Positions 971 to 7,113 of a DNA stretch of 7,113 nucleotides are shown piece after piece (positions within the stretch are counted from its first letter, which is position 1; every line of letters begins with the position of its first letter). The translations under genes and the position numbers were made by a program. This DNA comes from Trueperaceae bacterium (GTDB lineage: Bacteria > Deinococcota > Deinococci > Deinococcales > Trueperaceae): NCBI GenBank assembly GCA_024636105.1, contig JAGXHO010000146.1, forward strand, positions 1-7,113, written 5' to 3'. A model generated the notes under the pieces. That model made no database searches. It worked only from the letters and a program-made list of their open reading frames with translations, and was not told the DNA's origin.

Positions 971-1031
971 CGAACGGGTCGCCGTGGGGGGCCCGCCGCA
1001 TCGCGAGCGTTCGAACCCATGGAGGTCCTTC

Positions 1032-1082
1032 GTGACGAATCCGACGCAAGGCGCGCTTCGAGCCCGGTGGGGTCGCGGATGA
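1032..1082 (+). CDS. Putative 16-residue leader peptide, overlapping the next start
   Basis: GGAGG at 1021-1025, the best ribosome binding site in this leader, is spaced 6 nt from GTG 1032. That frame encodes MTNPTQGALRARWGRG and stops with TGA at 1080-1082. The stop overlaps the ATG (1079-1081) of the membrane protein gene as ATGA. This arrangement would couple translation of the first structural gene to the leader. The peptide resembles nothing I know and has no run of a single regulatory codon, so classic amino-acid attenuation is unlikely. Alternatively the strong site serves the downstream gene directly, or a frameshift error hides an N-terminal extension. The gapless match of the downstream protein to its paralogue from Met1 argues against an extension. 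Confidence 0.45.
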   Translation: MTNPTQGALRARWGRG

Positions 1083-1522
1083 TCCCGGCGTTCCGCGCCG
1101 CCAACACCCAGACCGCTCGTGCGCTCGAGCTCGTGCGCATGGTGCTCCTGTTCCTCGTGGCCGGCGGCATGCTCGGGTACGCGCTCGAGCTCTACGTGAT
1201 CGGCCACTGGCTCGACAGCGCCCAGTCGCGGATCCCGTTCTTCGTCACCGTGCCGGGCGTGCTGTTCATCGTGTGGACCTACTTCGACCGCACCACGCCG
1301 TGGGTGCGTGTCGCCTACATCGCCACGATGGTGCTGCTGATCGCCACCGGCGTGACGGGCGCCTACTTCCACTGGGTGTGGAACATGCAGGACGGCGGCG
1401 GCATCAACTGGTCCTTCACGCCCGCGATGGAGGAGTTCCATGGCTACCGGCCCGTGCTCGCCGCGCTGGCCTACACCAACATGGGCGTGACCGGACTCGC
1501 CTGCATCTTCCGGGCCCGGTGA
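1079..1522 (+). CDS. Small four-helix membrane protein, paralogue A
   Basis: This encodes 147 residues of no family I can name. Predicted membrane segments are about 19-41, 53-70, 76-98 and 124-144. Arginines in the N-terminus (R6, R14, R20), in the 71-77 loop and at the C-terminus (RAR) put both ends inside. The two loops after His43 and His98 then face the periplasm. I chose ATG 1079 over GTG 1067 and ATG 1019 because the protein then aligns from Met1 without gaps to the next gene product. Shared residues include T10, R14, L16, F25, G30, Y34, E37, V40-I-G-H43, T90-G91, G94-A95, H98, V100, N102 and D105; the RPVLA motif near 124 is also shared, offset by one. GGTGGGG (1066-1072) is a fair ribosome binding site. 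It is first of three genes, 10 nt before the next. The paired histidines and several Met/Trp residues could bind heme or metal, which is inference only. Confidence 0.85.
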   Translation: MIPAFRAANTQTARALELVRMVLLFLVAGGMLGYALELYVIGHWLDSAQSRIPFFVTVPGVLFIVWTYFDRTTPWVRVAYIATMVLLIATGVTGAYFHWVWNMQDGGGINWSFTPAMEEFHGYRPVLAALAYTNMGVTGLACIFRAR

Positions 1523-1532
1523 GGGGACGACG

Positions 1533-2033
1533 ATGATCCAGCGAATGATGCGCGCCCAGACCGCCGACGAACGCACCCTCGCGTTCCTGCAGAACTTCTT
1601 CCTCTTCATCGCCGCCTTCGGCTTCATCTTCTACGGTATCGAACACTGGGTGATCGGCCACCAGGACCTCACCCACTGGTCGGCACTCATCCCCGGATGG
1701 GTCTCGCTCGTGGGCGCACCGCTGGCGATCGTGATGTTCTTCACGACCAGCCGTGTGGCGGGGTACGCCTTCGTCGGGATCTCCGTGGTGTCCTTCCTCA
1801 CGGGGCTCGTGGGCGCCAGCATGCACCTCGTCTTCAACTCCAGCGACCTCGGCGTCCAGCTGTTCTCCATCAGCGGGTTCCTCGAGTCGATGCAAGTCCC
1901 CTACCGCCCCGTGCTCGCCGGACTCGCCCACACCCACGTCGGCGCCGTGGCCCTCGCCGTAGGCCTGACCGCCTGGGTGAAGGACGAACCCACGGTCCCT
2001 CGTCCCACTGCCCCTCAAGGAGGCATCTCATGA
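1533..2033 (+). CDS. Small four-helix membrane protein, paralogue B
   Basis: This encodes 166 residues and is a tandem paralogue of the preceding gene. It aligns gaplessly from Met1 to about residue 105 and then with a one-residue shift through PYRPVLAGLAHTHVG (123-137). Predicted helices are roughly 18-40, 53-71, 77-98 and 126-147, followed by a hydrophilic Pro/Thr-rich tail of about 19 residues absent from paralogue A. It keeps E37, H43, H98, N102 and D105. It adds H38, H48, H133 and H135 and so is richer in histidine. The start is ATG 1533 with GAGGGG at 1521-1526, 6 nt upstream. The stop overlaps the next ATG as ATGA, implying translational coupling. I do not recognise the family. A role with the exported DOMON protein is inferred from operon structure alone. 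Confidence 0.87.
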   Translation: MIQRMMRAQTADERTLAFLQNFFLFIAAFGFIFYGIEHWVIGHQDLTHWSALIPGWVSLVGAPLAIVMFFTTSRVAGYAFVGISVVSFLTGLVGASMHLVFNSSDLGVQLFSISGFLESMQVPYRPVLAGLAHTHVGAVALAVGLTAWVKDEPTVPRPTAPQGGIS

Positions 2034-2578
2034 TCCTCAAACTGCTCGCCACCACCTTCGCGCTCGCCCTCATCGGCGCCTTCGCCTTCGCCCAGCCCGT
2101 GATCGACGGCGCCATCGCCGATGGCGAGTACGCCAACACCGTCGCCCACGAGGAGTCTGGCTCGATGCTCTACTGGACGATCGCCGACGACGCCCTCCAC
2201 ATGGGCTTCACCATCCCCGCCAGCGGCTGGGCCGGCATCGGCTGGCTCCCCGAGATGACCAACCGCAAGGCCGGCGGCGAGATCCTGATCGCCACCGTCG
2301 GCGACGGCGGCGCGGCCGTGTTCGACATGTTCCAGGAGTCCGCGCGCGGCGAGCCCGAGATGGACGCCCAAAACGACTTCGCGAACGCCGTCGCCGTGCA
2401 TGAAGGCGACGTCTGGACCGTCGAGTTCAGCCGCCCCCTCGCCACCGGCGACGCCATGGACGTCGACGTGGTCGCGGGCACCCCGATGGTGCTCATGATC
2501 GCGCACGGCACCACCATGGATTCGAGCCGCCAGCACCCGCGCGACGCGCGCTGGTACATCGAGGGCTTCACCTTCTGA
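2030..2578 (+). CDS. Exported DOMON-domain protein (putative heme or ligand binder)
   Basis: This encodes 182 residues. Residues 1-21 form a signal peptide: a Lys4 charge, a hydrophobic core, and an Ala-Phe-Ala cleavage site before Gln22. The mature part resembles a DOMON domain: an IDG-x-I-x-DGEY opening (25-34), a YWTI-x-DD strand pair (48-54), GWAGIGWLPEM (66-76), the GGEILIATV strand (82-90), the FSRPLATGD block (133-141) and a final VLMIAHG...RQHPR segment (154-171). DOMON domains are beta-sandwiches that bind heme b or sugars, as in cellobiose dehydrogenase and cytochrome b561 fusions. Met76 and His169 (or His159) sit where Met/His heme ligands are expected; this placement is my reading, not a structural alignment. 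ATG 2030 has AAGGAGG at 2018-2024 and overlaps the previous stop. A strong hairpin follows 20 nt after the stop. It is last in the operon and presumably acts in the periplasm beside the two membrane proteins. Confidence 0.8.
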   Translation: MILKLLATTFALALIGAFAFAQPVIDGAIADGEYANTVAHEESGSMLYWTIADDALHMGFTIPASGWAGIGWLPEMTNRKAGGEILIATVGDGGAAVFDMFQESARGEPEMDAQNDFANAVAVHEGDVWTVEFSRPLATGDAMDVDVVAGTPMVLMIAHGTTMDSSRQHPRDARWYIEGFTF

Positions 2579-2598
2579 TCGCCTGACGCAACCTGCCG

Positions 2599-2642
2599 GA
2601 ACGGCGCGGCGCCGGACCTTCGGGTCCGGCGCCGCGCCGTTC
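2599..2642. terminator. Bidirectional hairpin terminator with UUCG loop
   Basis: A perfect 20-bp stem (2599-2618 / 2623-2642) closes on TTCG with a C-G closing pair, the exceptionally stable cUUCGg tetraloop on the plus-strand transcript. On the minus strand the loop reads CGAA. It lies 20 nt after the DOMON stop and 25 nt after the speA stop, so it serves both convergent units. Neither side has a U-tract, so it may act with Rho or as a 3' end stabiliser. Confidence 0.85.
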
Positions 2643-2667
2643 GTTGGGCCGCGCGGCGCGGCGCCGA

Positions 2668-4593
2668 TCAGACCTGCTCGAGGTACGTGTACCCGACCAG
2701 CTCGGCGTCGTAAAGCTCGGTCACCTCGCGCTTGTCGTCCTCGCTGAGGTTGGTGCCGCTGCGCTCCGCCTCGCGGATCTCGTCCTGCAGCCAGCCGTGC
2801 AGCTCGCGGGTCTCGTACCCCATGTTCTCGATCACGCGCCGCGCCTTCTGGCCGTTCACGAAGCGCTCGAGCCGCCAGGTGCCGTCGGGGTCGAGGCGCA
2901 CGTGCGCCTCGTTCATGCGCCCGAACAGGTTGTGGTTGTTCGCGAGCACGTCCTGGTACGCCCCGGTCAGGAACGCGCCCAGGTAGTACGGCTTGCCCGG
3001 CACCAGGTCGTGCACCGGCAGCGTGGCCTTGACGTCGCGCAGGTCGATGAACTTCTGGATCTTGCCGTCGCTGTCGCAGCTGATGTCGACGAGCGTCGCC
3101 TCCCGGGTCGGCACCTCACCGAGGCGGTGCAGCGGCACGATCGGGAACAGCTGCTGGATGGCCCAGTGGTCGGGCATCCCCTGGAACAGGCTGAAGTTGA
3201 CCACGTACTGGTCGGCGAGCCGCTTGGGAAGCGCCTCGAGCTCCTCGGGGACGTAATCGAGCTGCTCGACCACCTTGGCGATCCGCAGCAACGTGCGGTG
3301 GGAGAGCTGCTCGACGTACGCCCGTTCGAGCAGGGTGATGTACCCGAGGTCGAAGAGGCTGTGCATGGTGTCCTTGTTCGACACCGCCTCGTTGAACACC
3401 TCGCGGTAGTTCTTGAGGTTGACGTCCTTGGCGAGCTCTTGCATGTCGCGCACGACCGCGTGCACCTCGCCCTCGAGCGGCGGGAGCTCGTACGTGGCGC
3501 GCGTCGGGCCGATCGCGTCGATGACCGGCAGCACGATCATCGCGTGGTGGGCCGTGAGCGCCCGCCCCGACTCGGTGACCACGATCGGGTGCGGCGCGCC
3601 GCCGTCGTCGCAGGTCTCCTTGATCGTGTAGACGACCGTGTCCGCGTACTCGCCGATGCCGTAGTTGGCGCTGGCGTAGAAGTTCGTCTTGGAGCCGTCG
3701 TAATCGACGCCGAGCCCACCGCCGACGTTCAGATAGCGGACGTCGGCGCCCATCCCGACCACGTCGACGTACACCTGCGCGGCCTCGCGCACCGCGACCT
3801 TGATCTTGCGCACGTCGGTGAGCTGGCTGCCGACGTGGCAGTGGATCATCTGGAGCGCGCCGAGCTTGCCGAGCGCCCGCAACCGGCCCACGGCGTGGAT
3901 CAGCTCGGTGGCGGTGAGGCCGAACTTCGCCTCGTCGCCGCCCGACGCCTCCCATTGACCCGCGCCCTTGGCGTGCAGCTTGAAGCGGATGCCGACCACC
4001 GGATCGACGTCCATCGCGGCCGACACGCGCAGAACGCGCTCGAGCTCGCTCGGCTTCTCGAGCGTGATCACCACGTTCTTGCCGAGCTTGCGCCCCCACA
4101 GCGCGAGCCGGATGAAGTCGTCGTCCTTGAACCCGTTGCAGCAGATGAGCGCGTCGGGGTGCGTGTCCTGCACCAGGATGAGCGCCAGCTCGGCCTTGCT
4201 CCCCGCCTCGAGCCCGGTGGCGTAGCGCGCGCCGTACTCGGCGACGGTCTCGACGACCACCCGGCGCTGGTTGACCTTGATCGGGTAGACGCCCTGGTAG
4301 CGCGCCTTGTAGCCCGCTTCGCGGATCGACGTCTGGAACGCCTGGTTGATGCGGTCCAGCCGGTCCTCGATGATCTGCGGGAAGCGCAGGATCACCGGCA
4401 ACGACCGCCCCTCCGCCACGAGCCCGGCGACGATCTTCGGGATCGAGGTGCCCGGCCCCTCCGTGTTGCGAAGGGTGACGTGCATGTCGCCGCCGGCGCC
4501 GACCTCGAAGTAGCCGCTCGACCACGATGGGACGGCGTAGAGCTCCTCGGCGTCGGCGACCTTGAACGGGACCTCGGGGACGGTGTGGACCAA
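2668..4593 (-). CDS. speA: Biosynthetic arginine decarboxylase (arginine to agmatine)
   Basis: This is a 641-residue PLP enzyme of fold type III (alanine-racemase-like barrel), the first step of agmatine-route polyamine synthesis in the cytoplasm. Visible motifs are YPIKVNQ with the PLP Lys106, CCNGFKDDDFI (151-161), GIRFKLH (201-207), HCHVGSQ (251-257), the glycine-rich GGGLGVDYDG (291-300) that holds the PLP phosphate, ESGRALTAHH (341-350), and CDSDGKI (506-512) with the catalytic Cys506. Length fits the family (about 630-660). I chose the TTG at 4593-4591 because GGAGG (4604-4600) lies 6 nt upstream and homology-like sequence begins just after it. A longer in-frame GTG start at 4689 would add low-complexity Arg/Pro residues. 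No speB, speE or speD is visible here, but a deoxyhypusine synthase-like gene lies nearby. Agmatine fate is therefore unknown. It has its own promoter, downstream of xylB on the same strand. Confidence 0.96.
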   Translation of the reverse strand: MVHTVPEVPFKVADAEELYAVPSWSSGYFEVGAGGDMHVTLRNTEGPGTSIPKIVAGLVAEGRSLPVILRFPQIIEDRLDRINQAFQTSIREAGYKARYQGVYPIKVNQRRVVVETVAEYGARYATGLEAGSKAELALILVQDTHPDALICCNGFKDDDFIRLALWGRKLGKNVVITLEKPSELERVLRVSAAMDVDPVVGIRFKLHAKGAGQWEASGGDEAKFGLTATELIHAVGRLRALGKLGALQMIHCHVGSQLTDVRKIKVAVREAAQVYVDVVGMGADVRYLNVGGGLGVDYDGSKTNFYASANYGIGEYADTVVYTIKETCDDGGAPHPIVVTESGRALTAHHAMIVLPVIDAIGPTRATYELPPLEGEVHAVVRDMQELAKDVNLKNYREVFNEAVSNKDTMHSLFDLGYITLLERAYVEQLSHRTLLRIAKVVEQLDYVPEELEALPKRLADQYVVNFSLFQGMPDHWAIQQLFPIVPLHRLGEVPTREATLVDISCDSDGKIQKFIDLRDVKATLPVHDLVPGKPYYLGAFLTGAYQDVLANNHNLFGRMNEAHVRLDPDGTWRLERFVNGQKARRVIENMGYETRELHGWLQDEIREAERSGTNLSEDDKREVTELYDAELVGYTYLEQV

Positions 4594-6511: not shown

Positions 6512-7113
6512 GTGATCCGCTACACCGCCTGGACCGTGTCCGGACTCGGTCTGCTCGTGCTGTCGGTGACCGTCGCGCTGGCCGGTTTGACGCGGCTCGT
6601 CGCGAACGGCACCTGCGCGAACCACCCCGCCTTCGTCTCCACCCGACCCTGCCCGCCCGGCACCGAGGCGCTGATCCTGGTCGTGGGCGCCGCCTTCTTC
6701 ACCGGGTTCGCCGGGTGGGCGGCGTACGGGCTGCGCGCGCCCGGAGGCGGGCCGTCCCCCTGGCGCGACGGCCCGGACTACGGCGGGTTCTGGTGGCCGG
6801 CGCTCTTCCTCGGCGGCGCGACGCTCTTCTTCCGCGCCATGCGCGACTTCCAGGCCGCGGGCGCGACCGGCGACGCGTGGGGGATGGGGGTCGTCGGCGT
6901 GGTCTTCGTCGCCATGGGCGGCGTACCGCTTTTGGTGGTCGCGCGGCGGCTTCCCGCGCTGGTGTTCGGCGGACCGAAGCCACCTTCGTGGCTGGCGTCG
7001 GCGACCGGCGCCGCGCTCGGTGCGATCGGCGTGGCGCGCGCCGCTGCGCGGGCCGCCGCCGTCCCCGATCCCGCACCGGCGGGCGCTCCGGCGGCGGCCG
7101 CCACGGGCGGCGA
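6512..7113 (+). CDS. Multi-pass membrane protein with two-cysteine loop (3'-truncated by window edge)
   Basis: A GTG-start frame stays open for 200 codons to the window end. Predicted membrane segments are about 5-30, 52-73, 92-109 and 123-144. They are followed by a Pro/Ala-rich region from about 150 and a small hydrophobic stretch near 161-174. The loop after the first helix holds NGTCANHPAFVSTRPCPPGT (32-51), with Cys35 and Cys47 presumably disulfide-linked outside the membrane. I recall this G-[ST]-C-A...RPCP-x-GT loop from uncharacterised integral membrane proteins, mainly of Actinobacteriota. No function is known to me. Third-position GC is high throughout and the hydrophobic periodicity is consistent, so the frame is real. 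It is divergent from xylB, with an extended -10 placed for a leaderless message. Confidence 0.8.
   Translation, partial: MIRYTAWTVSGLGLLVLSVTVALAGLTRLVANGTCANHPAFVSTRPCPPGTEALILVVGAAFFTGFAGWAAYGLRAPGGGPSPWRDGPDYGGFWWPALFLGGATLFFRAMRDFQAAGATGDAWGMGVVGVVFVAMGGVPLLVVARRLPALVFGGPKPPSWLASATGAALGAIGVARAAARAAAVPDPAPAGAPAAAATGG

Follow-up and report, generated by a model that had tools for sequence, protein, structure and literature searches.

A conserved cassette of two small membrane paralogues and a DOMON protein: a candidate quinol-linked electron-transfer unit in Thermus and Trueperaceae

Introduction

A stretch of 7,113 nucleotides from a Trueperaceae bacterium, here called the window, carries two genes for small membrane proteins (A and B) followed by a gene for an exported DOMON protein (C), and this three-gene cassette recurs in other genomes of the phylum Deinococcota. 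We propose, at slightly less than even confidence, that A, B and C constitute a quinol-linked electron-transfer unit that faces the periplasm at the inner membrane and that in hot-spring Thermus would replace TtrC and feed a TtrAB-like molybdoenzyme. Enzymes of the TtrAB type in the periplasm are normally fed from the quinol pool via the NrfD-like protein TtrC. NrfD-like proteins and di-heme cytochrome b are described as the commonest membrane charge-translocating subunits of energy-transducing complexes (PMC8076601). Among the papers listed in searches of the open-licence literature, no title or abstract dealt with a DOMON cassette of either Thermus or Trueperaceae, and none was found on Trueperaceae together with DOMON, which is weak evidence of absence.

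Conservation of the Cassette in the Phylum

The preliminary description of the window had claimed three packed genes with a gap of 10 nt between A and B and an ATGA overlap between the stop codon of B and the start codon of C, and the open reading frame (ORF) coordinates of the three co-directional genes agree with it. A profile of A matched 33 of the 111 genomes of the phylum; two of these (G007 and G037) hold a distant single relative only, so that 31 genomes carry the A-B pair. The genes also co-occur as was to be expected from that description: the A-B-C tandem is present in 29 of the 31 loci, with A-B gaps of -5 to 13 nt and B-C gaps of -4 to 141 nt, and the two other loci are cut by contig ends, in G080 just after B and in G081 inside A. 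Because it is conserved across the phylum, the cassette is more than a chance arrangement. Its neighbours vary among the loci, the gene upstream of A being ruvC, a sugar-isomerase-like gene, a divergent deoxyhypusine-synthase-like gene or ttrA, and the conserved unit is the cassette. The profile of C matched 36 of the 111 genomes, six of which (G012–G015, G021, and G037) encode a stand-alone DOMON protein in the absence of an A-B pair.

The closest named relatives of the window are metagenome-assembled genomes of Trueperaceae. Scanning of genome contigs yielded three Trueperaceae loci, and the organisms named in the protein searches were Trueperaceae and Thermus only, most matches being without an organism. 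Eight carriers are called Trueperaceae-like here, namely the named genomes G001–G003 and, by similarity of their cassettes to these, G080, G081, G083, G088, and G089. The genus of genome G058 is probably Thermus, as judged from named homologues (Thermus oshimai and Thermus sp.) with matching sequence, and is referred to below as the Thermus group. A plasmid search with one Thermus A protein gave no match.

A TtrA-Like Molybdoenzyme Adjoins the Cassette in the Thermus Group

In 10 of the 31 loci the cassette begins 73–86 nt after a ttrB-ttrA gene pair with a twin-arginine start, in which the Cys motif of TtrA is conserved; the three TtrB proteins of this kind that were examined contain 16 cysteines. 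A sensor kinase gene diverges upstream of these ttrBA loci, accompanied in most of them by a gene for a PhnD-like protein. Relatives of TtrA were found in 27 of the 111 genomes (E 1e-50) and were divided into type 2, at least 80% identical to the query (12 genomes), and type 1 (17 genomes), two genomes (G048 and G049) having both. The cassette is present in each of the 12 type-2 genomes; adjacency to ttrA was not seen in two of them, G075, where both lie on different contigs, and G068, where the cassette stands at a contig start.

The two types differ in their membrane subunit. At type-1 loci, TtrC, an NrfD protein of about 10 helices, adjoins ttrA in 15 of 15 loci examined and by coordinates also in G021, which gives 16 of the 17 genomes; the last one, G030, has a partial ttrA only and no TtrC match. 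The gene ttrB precedes TtrC and ttrA in 14 of these 15 loci, and in the other one (L150) it was not called by the simple gene finder. At type-2 loci, the TtrC profile had no match (0/12). Genome-wide, nine of the 12 type-2 genomes are without any match to it, G056 has one weak and distant match, and the TtrC found in G048 and G049 belongs to their own type-1 locus. In a TtrA tree of 26 rows, comprising 11 of the 12 type-2 and 15 of the 17 type-1 sequences (G068, G021, and G030, being decayed or partial, were omitted), type 2 forms one clade with a support of 100/100. Under midpoint rooting, this clade and two NrfD-bearing clades meet in a fork whose order is not resolved, and a third NrfD-bearing clade lies outside. 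Among the 27 genomes of the Thermus group, type-2 TtrA occurs in 11 of 18 with the cassette vs. 0 of 9 without it (p 0.0024, uncorrected for relatedness). For Thermus scotoductus, the parts described for a sulfur reductase include a molybdopterin oxidoreductase and an nrfD gene that is separate from it (PMC3235269).

Signs of decay were seen at two places. In G072 (locus L099, positions 6259–8349), the cassette C gene is split in two pieces while A and B are open, a piece of the sensor kinase gene lies between ruvC and A, and ttrA is absent from the genome; apparently, the molybdoenzyme block was deleted and the cassette kept. In G068 (L118 and L154), the type-2 ttrA contains in-frame TGA codons, which reflect either decay or low-quality sequence.

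The Membrane Proteins A and B

Proteins A and B are paralogues sharing 33% identity over 144 columns. Structure prediction for B, based on 64 sequences, gives a bundle of four helices (11–40, 49–70, 74–106, and 127–146) with a mean predicted local distance difference test (pLDDT) score of 89.4, which agrees, A being its paralogue, with the four-helix membrane proteins of the preliminary description. Neither protein matches a characterized family in the libraries searched (Pfam, NCBIfam, PADLOC, and PDB sequences). Matches at E<=1 in Pfam and NCBIfam are all far below cut-off (DUF6480 and PspC for A, DUF202 for B) and include no b561 model, in line with the earlier view that the proteins are not b561-like. 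There was no NrfD match in Pfam, a joint A+B profile found nothing among PDB sequences at E<=10, and hhalign detected no homology to TtrC/NrfD (probability 0.2%, E 0.34, eight TtrC rows). Structural comparison of B with the PDB returned middling helical-bundle matches, and PsrC and the known membrane cytochromes are not among the matches listed. The IgE receptor beta chain, a copper-storage protein and de novo heme bundles, which do appear there, were set aside as ordinary helical-bundle likeness.

Charge counts assign loop 2-3 of A and B together with the termini of A to the inner side and loops 1-2 and 3-4, which are acidic, to the outer side, so that the conserved histidines would lie at the periplasmic side. 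Conservation was assessed in 32 A-like rows from genomes, including the window and the two distant single relatives, and in 30 B rows. Both families are invariant at E37, H43, H98, and N102, and in B, H38, D105, R125, and H133 are found in 30 of 30 rows and H135 in 29 of 30. A broader alignment, of 64 database rows covering both families, is without exception at H43 and N102 and almost so at E37 and H98. In the predicted topology these positions come together where helices 1, 3, and 4 end on the periplasmic side; the invariant histidines (H43 and H98 of A; H38, H43, H98, and H133 of B) are thus predicted to face the compartment of the DOMON protein, as had been claimed.

The distant single relatives of A (L049, positions 2–838, in G007; L050, positions 3410–3883, in G037) are accompanied neither by B nor by an adjoining DOMON gene. 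Their retention of E37, H43, H98, and N102 is a hint of a larger superfamily of membrane proteins. P0093, a metagenomic protein of 147 amino acids, is A-like except in the region of loop 3-4, where it is B-like, and may reflect gene conversion between the paralogues or an assembly chimera.

The DOMON Protein C

Protein C is a DOMON protein (PF03351, 50.7 bits vs. a cut-off of 32.7) with a signal-peptide-like N-terminus, which bears out the exported DOMON protein of the preliminary description. DOMON structures head the fold-match lists of its predicted structure (mean pLDDT 88.6), and EbdC, NxrC, and the cytochrome of cellobiose dehydrogenase are among the best PDB matches, so that the fold resembles heme-b proteins among others. 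The ethylbenzene dehydrogenase gamma model (PF09459, cut-off 33.3 bits) gave 25.5 bits for C of the window and 34.8 bits for one Thermus C. All complete C proteins of the cassette have Lys80 at the position of the axial Met in heme-b DOMON cytochromes and retain His169; both residues are invariant in alignments of 17 and of 54 rows. With an invariant lysine in place of the canonical axial methionine, the presence of heme is uncertain, and C may bind heme b with unusual Lys/His ligands. The canonical Met and His motifs are present in six of six stand-alone DOMON relatives. Stand-alone proteins with these motifs are located at L087 (6080–6739), L088 (6954–7553), L091 (1184–1789), and L092 (6748–7344); an ORF near that of L087 is P-type-ATPase-like by its motif.

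Proposed Mechanism and Comparison With Known Systems

We suggest that the paralogues A and B pair to an eight-helix membrane unit and that their conserved His, Glu, Asn, and Arg residues at the periplasmic surface form the site at which menaquinol would be oxidized, either directly or via a heme b held by the A/B histidines. Electrons would pass from A/B to C, with its heme b predicted between Lys80 and His169, and C would act as carrier between the membrane unit and a periplasmic acceptor. In Thermus this acceptor would be the TtrAB-like molybdoenzyme, possibly in complex with the cassette proteins, whose NrfD-type TtrC would have been lost and functionally replaced by the cassette. The case for this replacement is one of gene order and of the missing TtrC, and homology plays no part in it.

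The TtrABC tetrathionate reductase contains an NrfD-type membrane subunit, and NrfD is described as two four-helix bundles with a periplasm-side quinone site of His, Asn, and Tyr (PMC8076601). A and B would likewise supply two four-helix bundles, with a conserved periplasm-side patch of His, Glu, Asn, and Arg. However, A and B are two distinct proteins of four helices each, without detectable NrfD homology, the cassette loci lack TtrC, the cassette adds a DOMON protein, and the enzyme scores far below the TtrA and TtrB cut-offs. The gamma subunits of the EbdC type (PF09459) are reported to bind heme b with Met/Lys ligands (PMC8840923), whereas Lys/His ligands are predicted for C, its partner is TtrA-like and not a type II enzyme, and membrane proteins are added. 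Cytochrome b561-DOMON (CYBDOM) proteins also combine a DOMON protein with a histidine-bearing membrane protein, but the cassette genes are separate, there are two membrane proteins without a b561 match, and their histidines are one-sided. The cytochrome domain of cellobiose dehydrogenase ligates its heme by Met/His, in contrast to C with a Lys for the axial Met. Cytochrome b558/566 (CbsAB) of Sulfolobus comprises a heme-b DOMON-like protein and a membrane protein and resembles the cassette by description only.

Weighing of Alternative Explanations

Several observations count against the proposed reading. The NCBIfam scores of the enzyme are far below cut-off (402 vs. 1750 bits for TtrA, 182 vs. 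416 bits for TtrB), so that the two enzyme proteins are relatives rather than assigned members of these models, and the termini of B are mixed in charge and on their own give no support for the topology; both points lowered our confidence slightly. Moreover, 19 of the 31 cassette carriers, including the eight Trueperaceae-like ones, are without type-2 TtrA. In two of them (G053 and G055) a type-1 TtrA is present, and the window itself has no match to TtrA, TtrB, or TtrC in Pfam or NCBIfam. In these 19 genomes the module must work with something else, and for this reason the general function of the cassette can only be inferred.

This distribution, together with the varying gene upstream of A, fits an independent periplasmic reductase or electron shunt, in which electrons would pass from quinol to a soluble cytochrome c, a metal or a radical in the manner of DOMON-b561 proteins and the adjacency to ttrBA in Thermus would be due to chance. 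We consider this unlikely, since the TtrA clade that adjoins the cassette is the one without NrfD, and since the conserved histidines are predicted on one membrane side only. The histidine arrangement of b561 is two-sided. Rather unlikely in our view is a reversed flow, in which a periplasmic oxidation (in Thermus that of thiosulfate or another sulfur donor via TtrAB) would deliver electrons through C and A/B to quinone or cytochrome c, as the gamma heme does in ethylbenzene dehydrogenase. The likeness of C to EbdC in fold and its PF09459 scores, for the window below the cut-off, speak for such a flow, as do the high potential and Lys/Met ligands reported for the EbdC heme (PMC8840923) and, in 14 of the 31 loci, a co-directional Sulf_transp gene (YedE/TsuA-like, below cut-offs) located 3' of C. 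Yet the molybdoenzyme is nearer to TtrA than to type II dehydrogenases (402 vs. 54 bits), and the link to sulfur is loose: Sulf_transp occurs in 4 of 9 genomes of the Thermus group without the cassette and is absent from 4 of 18 with it (present in 14), and this link was rejected. A link to sulfur oxidation was rejected as well, because SoxZ (47/111 genomes) does not track the cassette, being present in all 18 cassette genomes of the Thermus group and in G045 and G075 but absent from the eight Trueperaceae-like carriers and from G097, G098, and G108.

A role outside redox chemistry, with C as a heme-less DOMON protein binding a ligand or metal and A/B as its membrane scaffold or sensor, appears improbable given the invariance of H169 and K80 in both C alignments and all complete cassette C rows, the adjacency to ttrBA, and the absence of any signalling domain from A, B, and C in Pfam and NCBIfam. 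Of the periplasm-facing redox or sensing complex of the preliminary description, the redox part gains partial support from the fold of C and from the 10 Thermus-group loci, while nothing favours sensing. A role in defence was dismissed, there being no PADLOC match.

Gene Layout and Neighbours in the Window

The coordinates of the features are given in Table 1. Ribosome-site-like purine-rich stretches precede B and C, and a weaker one precedes A.

Table 1. Features of the cassette region in the window.
Feature	Position	Strand	Description	Basis
Gene A	1079..1522	+	147-aa membrane protein without named family	ORF, 56 homologues
Gene B	1533..2033	+	166-aa four-helix membrane protein	ORF, 41 homologues, model
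Gene C	2030..2578	+	182-aa exported DOMON protein	PF03351, 54 homologues, model, fold matches
Hairpin	2599..2642	.	perfect 20-bp stem, UUCG loop; between the convergent C and speA	fold

The single promoter assumed earlier was not recovered, the promoter scan finding no sigma-70-like site in positions 600–2760. Of the single strong terminator, the perfect hairpin stood (RNA fold of 2579–2667, z -4.37), but it has no T-run, for which reason the terminator scan found no intrinsic terminator; the hairpin is possibly a transcript end of this T-less kind. Rfam gave no match in the window at gathering scores. To the left of the cassette lies, on the opposite strand, a gene of the deoxyhypusine-synthase/1,9-bis(guanidino)-5-aza-nonane-synthase kind, and to the right speA (arginine decarboxylase), also on the opposite strand, followed by a xylulokinase-like gene. 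A link to polyamines was not adopted, and the deoxyhypusine-synthase-like gene and speA, which occur together in 3 of 31 loci (L045, L051, and L055), are taken as neighbours only; L046 has the former without speA. Positions 6512–7111 hold an open-ended ORF of 200 amino acids with hydrophobic segments and no Pfam match. In another genome (G098, L043, positions 976–3249), an ORF of 757 amino acids with many CxxCH motifs, resembling a multiheme cytochrome c, is convergent to the cassette and is a possible electron partner of it.

Implications

It is possible, though we would sooner doubt than assert it, that A and B represent a new class of quinol-oxidizing subunit unrelated in sequence to NrfD, NarI, and b561, and that with a Lys/His heme-b DOMON protein they form a portable module that has displaced NrfD in a working TtrA-type enzyme of Thermus. 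If true, two small paralogues together with a DOMON protein would make up a new type of quinol dehydrogenase, and the Thermus loci would provide a replacement experiment made by nature within a single clade of enzymes. Moreover, this would be a first role for family-less proteins of 31 of the 111 genomes of the phylum and would allow Lys/His ligation of heme in the DOMON fold to be tested on C.
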